Below are positions 3,919 to 34,326 of a stretch of 38,184 bases of DNA, piece by piece (position 1 is the stretch's first letter; each line of letters starts with the position of its first letter). A program made the translations under genes and the position numbers. The stretch lies in contig LSNK01000005.1 in the NCBI GenBank assembly GCA_003056085.1, forward strand, positions 74,122-112,305, given 5' to 3'. The notes under the pieces are model-generated. The model searched no databases. It was not told where the DNA came from and saw nothing but the letters and a program-made list of their open reading frames with translations. The stretch comes from Parcubacteria group bacterium M6-OD1-1 (GTDB lineage Bacteria; Patescibacteriota; Minisyncoccia; GWC2-36-17; M10-OD1-4).

Positions 3919-4911
3919 TTATTTAACTACAAATTTAATACCAAGGTGTTGATATGCTTTTTCTGTTGCGGTTCTTCCTTGGGGCGTTCTTGCTAAAAAG
4001 CCAAGCTGTAAAAGATAAGGCTCATAAACATCTTCTATGGTTTCTGTTTCTTCAAGGGTTGAGGCGGCTAATGTTTTTAATCCTATAGGTCCGCCGTTGT
4101 ATTTTATAATTATAGTCTCAAGAATTTTGATATCTGAAGGCTCAAGACCTATTGCGTCTATTTCCATTAGCTGGAGCGCCTCTTTTGCTAATTTTTCTGT
4201 TATCGCATCAGAGTTATTTACTTGAGAATAGTCTCGGGTTCTTTTTAGTATTCTGTTTGCAATCCTTGGTGTTGATCTTGAAACCTTGGAAATTAAAACA
4301 AGAGCCCCTTTGTCTATATTTACATTTAAAAGTGAAGCAGATCTTTTTAATATTTGTTGAATTTCTTCTTCAGAGTAAAAATCCAATTTGTGGGTTGCGC
4401 CAAACCGAGATCTTAAAGGAGAAGATATAGATCCTATTTTTGTTGTTGCCGCTATTATGGTGAATCTTGGCAGTTGAAGTTGAAGAGTTTTTGCAGAAGG
4501 TCCTTTTCCTATAATAATATCTAAAATATTATTTTCCATAGCAGGGTAGAGGATTTCTTCTATTGATCTATTTAGTCTGTGGACTTCATCTATAAACAAA
4601 ACATCATTTTCTTGCAATCCCGTCAGTATGGAAGCTAAATCTCCTATTTTTTCTATGGCGGGACCCGAAGTTATTTTAACAGAAGAATTTGTTTTTTTGG
4701 CAATCAAATTAGCAAGTGTTGTTTTGCCAAGTCCCGCAGGACCATAAAGCAAAACATGATCAATGGGCTCTTCTCTTTTTTTTGCAGCCTCAATAAGAAC
4801 CTTTAGGTTGTTTTTTGTTTTTTCTTGTCCGATATAATCTTCCCATTGTTTTGGCCGCAGTGCTAGGTCAAATACAATTTCTTTTTTCTGTTTTTCTTCA
4901 GGTGTTGACAT
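3919..4911 (-). CDS. ruvB: Holliday junction branch migration DNA helicase RuvB
   Basis: [59 protein letters not shown]. Confidence 0.97.
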
Positions 4912-4956: not shown

Positions 4957-4985
4957 TTGACAGATTTTGTTTTGTGTGCTATGCT
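4957..4985 (+). promoter_or_regulatory. Sigma70-like promoter driving the candidate ncRNA
   Basis: TTGACA - 17 nt - TATGCT. Confidence 0.75.
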
Positions 4986-4991
4986 TGCATT

Positions 4992-5160
4992 AGATGATTA
5001 AAAATCCATTAATCTGTAGGTAATTAAGATAATTTATTATCTTAATTAGGAATGGCATTTAGATGGGTATTTTGGCTCCGGCTGGAATATACCTCTTGGC
5101 TGCTCTTTGCTCTAAACTCCCAAAGTCAGAGTGTTTACCTGCAGATTAATGGATTTTTTT
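4992..5160 (+). ncRNA. Structured small RNA of unknown family
   Basis: 23-bp closing stem (5001-5023 with 5135-5157; the only non-Watson-Crick position is a U-G on the plus strand). Internal 12-bp hairpin 5021-5048, hairpin with UCCG loop about 5066-5093, hairpin about 5103-5129, T7 tract at 5154-5160, promoter upstream. Confidence 0.7.
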
Positions 5161-5215: not shown

Positions 5216-6883
5216 TTATTTTGTAACTCTCTCAATTTCTTCCAAGGAAGTGATTCCACCAAGAACCTTCAATAATCCATCCTTTCTCATTTCTATCATA
5301 CCATTTTTTATTGCTGTTTCAATTAAGCCGCTTTGAGTTGGATTAGATACGATTATTTCTTCTGTTTTTTGGTCAACTTTAAATATTTCAAAAATACCTA
5401 TTCTTCCTTTGTAGCCTAAATTATTGCATTTACCGCATCCAACCGCTTTTGATATTTGGGTAGTCTCATTTATCTCCGGTTTTTCTATGTGTTTAGGCAG
5501 GGTGGACAACTCTTTTTTTATCATAGCCAATTCCTCTTTTGTCAGCGTTCTTTTTTCAGAACAAAAAGAGCAAAGTTTTCTTACCAATCTTTGAGCGATT
5601 ATGGTATTTATGGCAGGAGCGATAATGTGAGGATTAAGTCCCATGTCTATAAGACGAAGTACGGCAGAAGGGGCGTTGTTTGTATGAAGAGTAGAAAAAA
5701 CCAAATGACCGGTAAGCGCCGCATGAAGACTAATGTCAGCGGTTTCCGCATCTCTTATTTCACCAACCAAAATAATATCGGGATCTTGTCTTAAGATGGA
5801 TTTTAATCCGGATGCAAAAGTATAGCCTTCGCTAGGTTCAACCTGACTTTGAGAAATTCCTTCGATTTGGTATTCAATAGGGTCTTCTATGGTGATGATC
5901 TTGATTTTCGGAGTGTTGATTTTTTTTAAAAATGAATATAGCGTTGTTGTTTTACCGGAGCCGGTAGGGCCGGTTGCTATTATAAGTCCGTTTGGTCTTT
6001 TAAGGCTTTCTTCAATAGTTTCAAAATCGTGTTTTAAAAATCCTAAATCTTTAATTGAAACGGAAAGTTTATCGGGATTAAGTATTCTAAGAACCATAGA
6101 TTCTCCGTTTGGACCGGGAAGCACTGAGGTTCTTATTTCTATTGATTTTTTATCTGTGGATATGGTAAATCTTCCATCTTGAGGTGTTTGAGTGGTATTT
6201 ATTTTTAATTCAGACAGTAGTTTTATTCTGCTTAGAAGGTGTCTGTATACAGCATCAGATATCTCAACCACTTCTTGGAGAATTCCGTCTATTCTGAACC
6301 TAACTCTTGCTTTATCTCCTTCGGGTTCAATGTGGACATCGGAGCTGTCTAAACTTAAAGACCCTGCGATAATAAGCTCCAAAACAACAGAAATGCTTTT
6401 ATCTTGCACACTTTTAAATATTTTTATAAAATCCTCCACCTGCTTTATATTTTTCTGCAATTTCCATAAGTTTTCAGGAGTTATTTCAAGTTCTCTTGTT
6501 AAGTCATCTTCTTTTTTAGAAATAGATTCGTAAAAATCCCAGGCTTTTTTAATGCTTTGGGAAGATACTAAAAAAAGATCAATAGTAAACCCTCTTTTTT
6601 TTAAGCTTTCTATAACAGAAATAGTTTTTTCGTTATTAGGATTTTTAACGCAAACTTTTAAATCAAAATCGTGTTTGTCTATTATTGCTATTTCTGCATT
6701 TTTTGAAGTTTCTTTGTCTAAGATGGCAAGAGCATCCAAGTTAACGGTTTGAGTAAGTAAATTTACATAAGGCATGTTTAATTTCTGAGCTGTTCTTATC
6801 GTAAAATTCTCCTCTTCTTTTTTTCTGAGTTCTTCAAATTTTTTTAATTCTTCTTCCTCTTTTTTAAAGAATTTATCCGCCAT
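5216..6883 (-). CDS. pilB: Type IV pilus assembly / type II secretion ATPase (PilB/GspE family)
   Basis: GLIIATGPTGSGKTTTLYSFL, DPIEYQIEGISQSQV, LRQDPDIILVGEIRDAETADISLHAALTGHLVFSTLHTN, tetracysteine CSFC...CGKC. Confidence 0.93.
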   Translation of the reverse strand: MADKFFKKEEEELKKFEELRKKEEENFTIRTAQKLNMPYVNLLTQTVNLDALAILDKETSKNAEIAIIDKHDFDLKVCVKNPNNEKTISVIESLKKRGFTIDLFLVSSQSIKKAWDFYESISKKEDDLTRELEITPENLWKLQKNIKQVEDFIKIFKSVQDKSISVVLELIIAGSLSLDSSDVHIEPEGDKARVRFRIDGILQEVVEISDAVYRHLLSRIKLLSELKINTTQTPQDGRFTISTDKKSIEIRTSVLPGPNGESMVLRILNPDKLSVSIKDLGFLKHDFETIEESLKRPNGLIIATGPTGSGKTTTLYSFLKKINTPKIKIITIEDPIEYQIEGISQSQVEPSEGYTFASGLKSILRQDPDIILVGEIRDAETADISLHAALTGHLVFSTLHTNNAPSAVLRLIDMGLNPHIIAPAINTIIAQRLVRKLCSFCSEKRTLTKEELAMIKKELSTLPKHIEKPEINETTQISKAVGCGKCNNLGYKGRIGIFEIFKVDQKTEEIIVSNPTQSGLIETAIKNGMIEMRKDGLLKVLGGITSLEEIERVTK

Positions 6884-9010: not shown

Positions 9011-10945
9011 ATGATAATTGAAAAAAAGAAAGGGTTTTTAGACCCTAAAAAAAAGAAAGAAAATAAAGAAAACAAAAAAATAGAAAATAAAAAAAGCGCA
9101 AACAGCGCCACATTTAAGCATTCGGCAAAAAAGCATAATAAAAAAGAGACAAAAGTTTCAAGGAAAAAGATGTCTATGGGATCAAGGTATGCAGTAAAAT
9201 CAAGAAAAAGGATGATTCCCACAATAACTCACTTAAGAGATGACATTACTTTAGGCATAAAGCCAAGGAAAGTTTCAAAGGATCATGTCAGAGTTATTCC
9301 TATTGGCGGAGTAGAGGAGATAGGAAGAAATATGATAGCGGTTGAATATGGAAATGACATAATTATCATGGACGCGGGTTTAGAATTTCCAACAAGCGAC
9401 CATCCCGGAGTTGATTATCTTATTCCTAATGTAAGTTATTTAAAAAAATATAAACATCTAATAAGAGCTATAGTTATCAGTCATGGTCATTTGGATCATG
9501 TCGGCGCCTTGCCTTATGTTATAGAAGATCTTGGAAATCCTCCGATTTATACAACAGGGTTCACCGCTGCTCTTATTAAGAAAAAACACTCAGAGTTTAA
9601 ACATTTGCCGACTCCTAACATTATTCAAGTTAAAAAAGGAGATAGATTAAAAATCGGGAAAGAGGGAATGTTTTTCAGGTTTTTTGGGGTTGAGCATGCT
9701 ATTCCGGACTCCATCGGTACTATTTTAGAAACTAAATTCGGAGACATAGTTTATCCGGGGGATTTTAAAGTTGCAAGAGACAAAGATAATAATCCTGTTG
9801 AGGTTGAAGAGTATGAAGAAATGGGCAAAAAAGGTGTTTTGCTTCTTATTTTAGAGAGTACCAATATAGAAAAAGAAGGATTTTCAGGAACCGATGAAGA
9901 GGTTGCGGAAGGACTTGAGTCTGTATACGAAAAAGCAAAAGGAAGGATTATCACAGCCACATTTTCTTCTCAAATAGAAAGAGTTGTTGATATTGTTAAA
10001 ATATCAGAGAAATTAGGAAGAAAAGTAGCGGTTTTAGGATTCTCTTTAAAAACAAACCTTGAACTCGCAAAAGAATACAACATATTTGCTCCAAAAAAAG
10101 ATACTTTAATAGACATTAAAGATGTTGATAAATATCCGCAAAATAAAGTAATGATAATTTGTACAGGAGGACAAGGAGAGGAAAATTCCGCTTTGGTGAG
10201 AATTGTCAACAAAAGAGACAGAAATATAAAAATTCAAAAAGACGACACAGTTGTTCTTTCTTCTTCTATTGTTCCTGGGAATGAGAGACCTGTACAATAT
10301 TTAAAAGATAATTTAGCAAGACAGGGTGCAAAAGTAATTCATTACAAAATGGCAACTGTTCATGCCAGCGGGCACGCTTACAGAGAAGAAGTGGCTGTTT
10401 TGCATAAACTTGTTAAGCCCAAATTCTTTATACCTGTTCACGGTTTTTATTTTAATTTAGTAAGACACAAAGAACTTGCTATGGAGCTTGGCATGCCGGA
10501 AAAAAACATTGCCGTGCCGTTTTGCAACGGAACTATAATAAATCTTAATGATCAAAAAATAGAACAAATAAAAGATTCTATTCCCGCAAATTTTGTAACT
10601 GTTGACGGACTCGGTGTCGGGGATGTAAAAGAGGTTGTTCTGCGAGACAGAAATATTCTTGCGCAAGACGGAATTTTTGTTGTGTTTGCCGTAGTGGATG
10701 AAACAACAGGAAGAGTAAAGACGTCTCCGGATATAATTTCAAGAGGATTTATTTATCTAAGGGAATCTCAAGAGCTTCTTCATGAAGTTAGAAGAATAAT
10801 AAGATCTACAATTGAGGCAAATACAAAAATTCACCCCATAGATGTAGGATTTATAACTGAAGAGGTGAGAGAAGAAGTAGGAAAATTTTTGTTTCAACAC
10901 ACAAAAAGAAGACCGATGGTCTTACCTGTTATCGTTAGGGTTTAA
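9011..10945 (+). CDS. rnj: Ribonuclease J with Lys-rich N-terminal extension
   Basis: RVIPIGGVEEIGRNMIAVEYGNDIIIMDAGLEFP, VISHGHLDHVGALPYV, HVHASGHAYREE-type region, C-terminal RRPMVLPVIVRV. Confidence 0.95.
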   Translation: MIIEKKKGFLDPKKKKENKENKKIENKKSANSATFKHSAKKHNKKETKVSRKKMSMGSRYAVKSRKRMIPTITHLRDDITLGIKPRKVSKDHVRVIPIGGVEEIGRNMIAVEYGNDIIIMDAGLEFPTSDHPGVDYLIPNVSYLKKYKHLIRAIVISHGHLDHVGALPYVIEDLGNPPIYTTGFTAALIKKKHSEFKHLPTPNIIQVKKGDRLKIGKEGMFFRFFGVEHAIPDSIGTILETKFGDIVYPGDFKVARDKDNNPVEVEEYEEMGKKGVLLLILESTNIEKEGFSGTDEEVAEGLESVYEKAKGRIITATFSSQIERVVDIVKISEKLGRKVAVLGFSLKTNLELAKEYNIFAPKKDTLIDIKDVDKYPQNKVMIICTGGQGEENSALVRIVNKRDRNIKIQKDDTVVLSSSIVPGNERPVQYLKDNLARQGAKVIHYKMATVHASGHAYREEVAVLHKLVKPKFFIPVHGFYFNLVRHKELAMELGMPEKNIAVPFCNGTIINLNDQKIEQIKDSIPANFVTVDGLGVGDVKEVVLRDRNILAQDGIFVVFAVVDETTGRVKTSPDIISRGFIYLRESQELLHEVRRIIRSTIEANTKIHPIDVGFITEEVREEVGKFLFQHTKRRPMVLPVIVRV

Positions 10946-22110: not shown

Positions 22111-22505
22111 TGGTGGAGATGGCGAGAGTTGAACTCGCATCCAAAAAGTTTTTAAAAACACTTCTACAAACATAGCTTATTTTATATGAATTTTAGAATT
22201 TTTAATCTATAAAATAAGCAAAATGATTAAAAATTCCTATCCGCTGATCCTTTGCAACATATTGCGGAAAATACATTGCGCATTTCGATGGATATAACAC
22301 CTAAGCTCCACTTATCGAAAATCAGTGGGTCAGATGGCAAAAGTTAAACTCTTGCGAAAGCTAAAGATGGAGCAAATGCACTTGCAAGTGCCGCCTTTGC
22401 TTTTGAAAATAAGTTTGCACTTATTGTTTTGCTTCAGATTTACGAGTTAAAGCAGCTCGGTTTGCATATTTTTAAAGAGTCTTTTTGTCGAAGCCCGACA
22501 TCCCC
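22111..22505 (-). ncRNA. ssrA: Transfer-messenger RNA (tmRNA)
   Basis: 5' GGGGATGTCGGGCTTCGAC; 3' GGATGCGAGTTCAACTCTCGCCATCTCCACCA. GGGGAUG/CAUCUCC acceptor stem with one G-U. Tag ORF 22418-22344 with stop in a hairpin loop. Pseudoknot 22175-22236. Next to smpB. Confidence 0.95.
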
Positions 22506-32949: not shown

Positions 32950-34326
32950 ATGATTAAATTGAAGTTTTGTGGTGGTGTAGCGGGGTCTGTGACAGGTGCT
33001 TGTTACTTAATAGAAACCAATAATACAAAGATATTAGTTGATTGCGGAATGTTTCAGGGTTCTCGTTTTTCTGAGTTTTCCAATTCAGATCCTTTTCCAT
33101 TTAATCCAAAAGATGTCAGCGCTGTCATTGTGACTCATGCTCACATAGACCATTCCGGGCGATTGCCCAAACTTGTAAGAGATGGCTTTGGAGGAAAACT
33201 TTATGGAACAGAGCCAACATTGGATTTTGCGCACACGCTTTTAAATGATTCTGAACATGTTATAAAGGAGGAGGCAAAAAGAGAAGGTTTGCAGCCTTTC
33301 TATACTTTAAAAGATGTTGCAAAAACTTTTGAACTTACTAATCCAAAAAAATACAATGAAGAGGTAGTGGTTTCGGAAGATATAAGGTTTATTTTAAGAA
33401 ATGCAGGTCATATTTTAGGTTCTTCAATTGTTGAGCTTTTTGTAAAAAACAGCAAAGGAAAAGAGATAAAAATTGTATTTTCAGGGGACTTGGGAAATTA
33501 CCCGGCTCCTGTTATTGGTCAAACAGAATTTATAGATGATGCAGATTATGTTTTAGTGGAGTCGGCATACGGTGACAGGATTCACGAAACCACAAAAAAA
33601 AGAAAAGATATTTTGGAAGACGTAATAGAAGAAACCATCAACAAGGGAGGGGTTTTAATGATTCCCGCTTTTGCAACAGAAAGGACTCAAGAATTGCTTT
33701 ATGAATTAAACGAACTTGTTGAAAATGGAAGAATAGCGAGAGTTCCAATATTTTTAGATTCCCCGCTTGCTATTAAAATAACAGAAATTTACAAAAGACA
33801 TGAAAGTTATTTTGACAAAAAAACAAAACATCTCATAGAAACAGGAGATGATATTTTTAATTTTCCCGGTCTTAAATTTACATCCGACACGGAAGAATCA
33901 AAAGCGATAGTGCGTCATGAGGGCGCTAAGATAATAATCGCCGGATCAGGTATGTCAAACGGAGGAAGGATTGTTCATCATGAAATAAATTATCTTCCGG
34001 ATCCAAAAAACACTCTGTTAATTATCGGGTATCAAGTTAGAGGGTCTTTAGGCAGACGTTTGCTTGATGGTGAAAAGGAAGTGAGAATTTTAGGCCGTAA
34101 GGTTTTAGTGAGAGCAAAAATAATAAATATTGGAGGATATTCCGCTCACGCAGATCAAAAACAGCTTTTAAATTGGCTTTCTCCAATGCGTCATACGGCA
34201 AAAAGAATTTTTGTTGTTCAAGGAGAAGAGAAGGCAGCAGCAGCATTATCTCAACATATAAAAGATGAATTAGCCGCAGAATCCGAAGCGCCAATTATGA
34301 ACCAAGAAGTGTTTTTAGAAAGTTAA
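32950..34326 (+). CDS. Metallo-beta-lactamase/beta-CASP RNA-processing nuclease
   Basis: VTHAHIDHSGRLPKLV, IVFSGDLGNYPAPVIG, MIPAFATERTQELLYEL, IIAGSGMSNGGRIVHHEINYL, GGYSAHADQKQLLNWL. Confidence 0.93.
   Translation: MIKLKFCGGVAGSVTGACYLIETNNTKILVDCGMFQGSRFSEFSNSDPFPFNPKDVSAVIVTHAHIDHSGRLPKLVRDGFGGKLYGTEPTLDFAHTLLNDSEHVIKEEAKREGLQPFYTLKDVAKTFELTNPKKYNEEVVVSEDIRFILRNAGHILGSSIVELFVKNSKGKEIKIVFSGDLGNYPAPVIGQTEFIDDADYVLVESAYGDRIHETTKKRKDILEDVIEETINKGGVLMIPAFATERTQELLYELNELVENGRIARVPIFLDSPLAIKITEIYKRHESYFDKKTKHLIETGDDIFNFPGLKFTSDTEESKAIVRHEGAKIIIAGSGMSNGGRIVHHEINYLPDPKNTLLIIGYQVRGSLGRRLLDGEKEVRILGRKVLVRAKIINIGGYSAHADQKQLLNWLSPMRHTAKRIFVVQGEEKAAAALSQHIKDELAAESEAPIMNQEVFLES

Follow-up and report, generated by a model that had tools for sequence, protein, structure and literature searches.

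The ruvB-pilB interval and its predicted transcript

In the window, that is, the whole stretch of 38,184 nucleotides that was analysed, ruvB and a gene for a pilB-type ATPase both lie on the minus strand, and the interval between them very probably encodes, on the plus strand, a genuine RNA, about 170 bases long and transcribed independently, judging from the sequence. Its start was placed 7 nt past the -10 box of a sigma70-type promoter and its end at a T-tract. The features of the locus are as follows.

3919-4911, minus strand: ruvB, divergent neighbour in conserved synteny (Pfam RuvB_N, 1.4e-72)
4957-4985, plus strand: sigma70-type promoter as read from the sequence, with -35 TTGACA at 4957-4962, a 17-nt spacer and -10 TATGCT at 4980-4985
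4992-5160, plus strand: predicted mature RNA, about 169 nt (ends from the promoter and T-run; fold z-score; homologues over the full model)
5000-5022, plus strand: closing helix P1, 5' strand, 23 bp, conserved inner end CTGTAGGTA (MFE, covariation)
5023-5046, plus strand: hairpin P2, 5023-5032/5037-5046 (MFE, alignments), variable in sequence and missing in some homologues
5048-5107, plus strand: arm P3 (MFE; invariant or covarying pairs in alignment A3; covariation)
5048-5051/5104-5107 and 5053-5056/5099-5102, plus strand: lower helices of P3
5061-5063/5094-5096 and 5065-5066/5092-5093, plus strand: middle helices of P3
5067-5076/5081-5090, plus strand: apical helix of P3, with a UCCG (UNCG) loop at 5077-5080
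5109-5132, plus strand: hairpin P4, 5109-5113/5128-5132 and 5116-5118/5124-5126 (MFE; covarying pairs in the model-fitted alignment)
5136-5158, plus strand: closing helix P1, 3' strand (MFE, covariation)
5154-5160, plus strand: T7 tract directly on the base of P1, 3' end of the RNA and probable terminator (sequence)
5216-6883, minus strand: pilB-type ATPase, convergent neighbour in conserved synteny (Pfam T2SSE, 1.6e-121)

The preliminary description had reported the two flanking genes, the TTGACA-17-TATGCT promoter and the T7 tract, all of which are present, and had seen no convincing reading frame; neither strand of the window has an open frame that runs across the RNA. Farther along, a beta-CASP nuclease is encoded at 32950-34326 on the plus strand. 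It most resembles the archaeal aCPSF1 (TIGR03675) and the type VII Cas14 MBL (NF045584), with scores well below both cut-offs, and is separate from the RNase J of the window (9011-10945).

Fold and covariation

The MFE of the RNA is -61.5 kcal/mol, compared with -35.8 +/- 3.9 for dinucleotide shuffles (z = -6.67), and 0 of 200 shuffles were as stable. The closing stem does have the 23 bp previously attributed to it, but its coordinates had been one base off, since in the MFE structure it pairs 5000-5022 with 5136-5158 rather than 5001-5023 with 5135-5157. The three internal hairpins that had been recognised within it are P2, P3 and P4. P1 is long and variable in its outer part, with a conserved inner end (CUGUAGGCA/UGCCUACAG), and P4 varies among homologues. 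P3 is the most conserved element and follows the pattern GGRUA...CUGG-Y-UNCG-R-CUGG...UAUUCC, which includes two wobble pairs, U.G and G.U. Its apical G-C pair is invariant in 58 of 58 homologues, and the Y-R pair that closes the UNCG-type loop covaries, alternating between C-G, U-A and U.G. One homologue (L058, 1501-1716) carries a long GC-rich inverted-repeat insertion inside the tip loop of P3.

With RNAalifold, 58 model-aligned homologues gave 52 consensus pairs, 50 of them with two-sided compensatory change. Covariation was also assessed by an R-scape-like procedure, a G-test with APC in which the null is generated by re-dealing the substitutions along a FastTree tree. Applied to 83 model-aligned sequences, it returned 33 significant pairs, all within the structure and none outside. 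Since the model had guided this alignment, 65 sequences were also aligned with MAFFT from sequence alone and tested in the same way; here all 19 significant pairs were base pairs of the window MFE structure, the signal being carried by P1 and by the apical helix of P3. Covariation in homologues, which had been named beforehand as a check on the proposed RNA, is thus very strong in both alignments.

The plus strand had been assigned from wobble pairs, among them T5017/G5141, which does exist and belongs to the pairs that covary. Over the homologues, the paired cells on the plus strand contain 537 G-U against 89 A-C and the promoter is likewise conserved on that strand, so that the assignment holds. 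Most loci have a TTGACA-17-TATAAT-like promoter: of 78 homologous loci, which take in those of the types B and C described below, 50 show a match of at least 10/12 just upstream of the RNA on its own strand and 0 on the opposite strand, the mean match of shuffled sequence being 7.9/12. Of 83 loci, 38 have a T-run of at least 5 at the 3' end of the RNA, compared with 7 for a control window. Own-strand promoter, wobble counts and T-runs taken together, the RNA most likely has its own gene, read against both neighbours. Some model matches on the opposite strand (about 30 to 50 bits) were considered as second copies and, where examined, rejected as shadows of the same hairpins.

A new RNA family, nearly universal among the sampled members of its class

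When Rfam 15 was run on the window, the sole match was the tmRNA (22111-22505, minus strand). At the gathering score the RNA region had no match, and at E <= 10 it had three chance-level matches to eukaryotic snoRNA/scaRNA families (E 6 to 8). Rfam on the homologues in other genomes gave nothing of note, a search of the plasmid collection with the RNA gave no match, and no description of it was found in the open-access literature on CPR/Patescibacteria ncRNA, 6S, SRP or ruvB/pilB. The RNA, which we call type A, is a new family, outside all those tested. It had been presented as an orphan: this is right in so far as no known family takes it in, even at relaxed thresholds, and an understatement in that the RNA is a class-wide family of its own.

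By BLAST, the RNA is found at 81% in the same genus and at 83% (over the matched part) in the same family; two distant class genomes also gave weak matches. A model of 167 positions, R1, built from five sequences that include the window RNA, matches 195 of 387 class genomes and 158 of 297 genera, with a match that is nearly always single and spans all 167 positions. For the genomes that R1 missed, ruvB was located in 26, 23 of which had the full ruvB locus. Seventeen of these 23 match a second model, R2, directly upstream of ruvB and divergent from it, and three more (L164, L167 and L169) have, by eye, a long-stem RNA with a promoter. With 20 of the 23 checked genomes carrying the RNA at the ruvB site, it comes near to being universal among the sampled genomes of the class. 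In the other three it seems to be missing from that site, so that type A is apparently not strictly universal. Two of these (L168 and L170, family f16) have neither the RNA nor pilB beside ruvB, and in the third (L171) pilB is so close to ruvB that no space is left for the RNA; all three are candidates for true loss.

The window RNA, itself among the source sequences of R1 and R2, falls within the family by its full-length match, its ruvB-pilB site and its own-strand promoter. That type A is a conserved RNA gene we regard as near certain, the comparison supporting it well and the transcript itself being a prediction.

Similar RNAs in other classes

Outside the class, about 265 genomes of the phylum were searched with R2, and 9 of them gave a match. 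Two further types of RNA were distinguished. Type B (L135, L136, L137, L139 and, by eye, L191) keeps an inner helix CUGUAGRCA/UGUCUACAG and an arm ending in ...CUCCUCG, and is a neighbour of ruvB in four cases (L135, L137, L139 and L191). Type C is a second RNA with good support. Sixteen genomes of other classes contain CACGACAAGCATGG exactly, the invariance of this motif being due to the fact that the type C sequences were picked by it. In alignment A6 of this CACGACAAGCAUGG family (15 sequences), 20 of 29 pairs show compensatory change. The type C loci (L138, L140, L142, L143 and L244 to L254) are unannotated, structured regions of about 100 to 130 nt around CACGACAAGCATGG, one of which (L143) immediately follows an rRNA operon. 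In Rfam, type C had no convincing match.

Type C resembles type A in its long closing helix and in a P3-like arm with G.U, G-C, Y-R and a UNCG-type tip, and in one locus (L249) CUGGUUCCGACUGG is identical to that of type A. It differs in that a 10-nt asymmetric bulge, ACGACAAGCA, replaces P2 and P4, and in its neighbourhood. One genome (G559) holds both an A-like RNA (L141) and a type C RNA (L140), which suggests that A and C are separate genes there. The shared tip nevertheless favours types A, B and C being one family. That they are divergent members of a single phylum-wide family, and that this RNA belongs to an unrecognised, probably essential ribonucleoprotein of Patescibacteria with a role in a core process, is a more tentative proposal, possible though with the odds against it. 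If true, the role may be in protein targeting, translation or transcription control.

An independent gene or an element of the interval

Among 68 class loci, ruvB is upstream and divergent in 64, pilB is downstream and convergent in 66, and both hold in 62, so that in these 62 the RNA is opposite in orientation to both neighbours. Of the six exceptions, some of which are at contig ends, ruvB went undetected in the flank of four and pilB in that of two. The question arises whether the RNA is rather a cis-acting element of the interval, such as a bidirectional terminator of pilB, an antisense RNA or a minus-strand leader of ruvB. The conserved linkage, which would then be functional, is what is expected of a cis element; the base of P1 abuts the 3' end of pilB, with T-runs there in many homologues, and the hairpins can fold on either strand. 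However, the promoter is on the plus strand only, the wobble pairs are compatible with that strand only, and neither neighbour is read in the same direction as the RNA. Moreover, the spacing to ruvB is not fixed, ranging from about 15 to 280 nt, the P3 motif in the interior is conserved far beyond the needs of a terminator, and one locus (L092) carries the RNA beside a different upstream gene, with no detectable ruvB in the flank. We therefore consider a cis-acting role unlikely.

We favour, with a probability of roughly 0.7, a separate gene whose product would be a stable structured RNA that acts in trans as the scaffold of a housekeeping ribonucleoprotein, a reading that comes from sequence comparison. 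The comparison shows a sigma70-type promoter of its own, a four-way junction closed by P1, and one copy kept at one site throughout a class of bacteria with small genomes. According to this proposal, the transcript would run from about 4992 to 5160, and P1, by tying both ends together, may shield them from exonucleases, as in other long-lived RNAs. P2 and P4 would be spacers, free to vary or to be lost. P3, with its UNCG cap, its succession of C-G, U.G, G.U, G-C and Y-R pairs and its asymmetric internal loop, would be the docking site of a conserved protein partner, and it is plausible that the UNCG-capped knob with its tandem wobbles is where this protein binds. The RNA would then act neither as an antisense nor as a leader.

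Near-universal single-copy structured RNAs are few, namely rRNA, tRNA, RNase P, tmRNA, SRP and 6S RNA, and Patescibacteria (CPR), to which the class probably belongs, judging from genome size, the lack of SRP and the genomes sampled, make up a very large, hardly cultured share of bacterial diversity, with reduced machinery in which SRP was not detected. That a class with streamlined genomes has kept one more such RNA throughout speaks for a core function, and an extra conserved RNA in Patescibacteria may show how a basic process was replaced or rewired. That nearly every member examined has type A at one and the same site beside ruvB suggests a housekeeping RNA that has gone unrecognised.

Comparison with known RNAs

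The closest parallel is 6S RNA (SsrS, RF00013), which type A resembles in its length of about 170 nt, its own promoter, its ends joined by a long helix, its single copy per genome and its conservation within a clade. One might accordingly take it for a second 6S RNA, or a derivative of one, with the long helix as its binding site for RNA polymerase, all the more as the 6S RNAs of the class are very divergent and score below threshold in Rfam. Sub-threshold RF00013 matches with a CACCCACCUGG core were found in three class genomes, and a model built from these, R3, detects 6S RNA in 61 of 144 class genomes, including one of the same genus (G001) and one of the same family (G002), in both of which 6S and type A lie on different contigs. 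In the window's genome, no 6S was found with either model. The class 6S RNAs, including L031, L032 and L033, remain below the Rfam gathering cut-off, and the Rfam model under-reports them. Against kinship, the RNA region has no RF00013 match at E <= 10, and recognisable 6S RNA occurs elsewhere in relatives that also carry type A (for example G002, G016 and G047). The structure differs as well: in both the MFE and the consensus, P1 is fully paired, without a central bubble resembling an open promoter, and leads into a four-way junction. The faint likeness to 6S noted earlier is therefore not kinship, the multibranched interior being unlike 6S, as had also been pointed out, and a 6S origin is quite improbable.

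Still less probable is that type A replaces SRP RNA in a lineage without SRP. The SRP54 M domain (PF02978) was found in 0 of 288 phylum genomes, the window's genome included, with 14 of 14 controls positive, and no SRP RNA scored over the cut-off in 37 class genomes (RF00169 in 0 of 37), while type A is class-wide; a CPR genome paper likewise notes that many CPR lack SRP subunits (PMC8080830). SRP RNA (small, RF00169; large, RF01854) is likewise stable and of housekeeping type, and also has a long helix and an arm capped by a tetraloop. However, the loss of SRP is phylum-wide and type A occurs mainly in one class; neither SRP model matches, the domain IV loop is not seen in type A, and no Ffh-like partner was found. 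A pattern of "RNA where SRP is lost" was also considered and dropped, SRP being missing throughout the phylum sample. Finally, the resemblance of P1 to a long terminal inverted repeat might suggest a mobile element such as a MITE, a negligible possibility refuted by a single copy per genome at one conserved site and by compensatory evolution; the MITE-like copy pattern raised earlier was not found, and neither were the two other outcomes named beforehand as refuting, a strong hit to a known family and a lack of covariation.

RNase P and tmRNA, which the preliminary description had set aside together with SRP, gave no model match to the RNA region at E <= 10. RNase P RNA, which in CPR can be divergent (PMC8172020), is larger than type A and has a different fold, and the tmRNA (RF00023) has a separate gene in the window. 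The P3 tip of some homologues, UGGUUUCGACUGG, bears a superficial likeness to the tmRNA 5' region; a relation was dropped, as the tmRNA of this genome starts with GGGGATGTCGGGCTTCGACAAAAAG and the tip is a covarying hairpin.

Orphan structured RNAs of bacteria such as raiA and OLE have an elaborate conserved fold, are spread over a clade, are probably bound to protein and were long of unknown function. Type A, which has no Rfam match, differs from this class in architecture and host lineage, and is like it in the elaborate conserved fold and the clade-wide spread.
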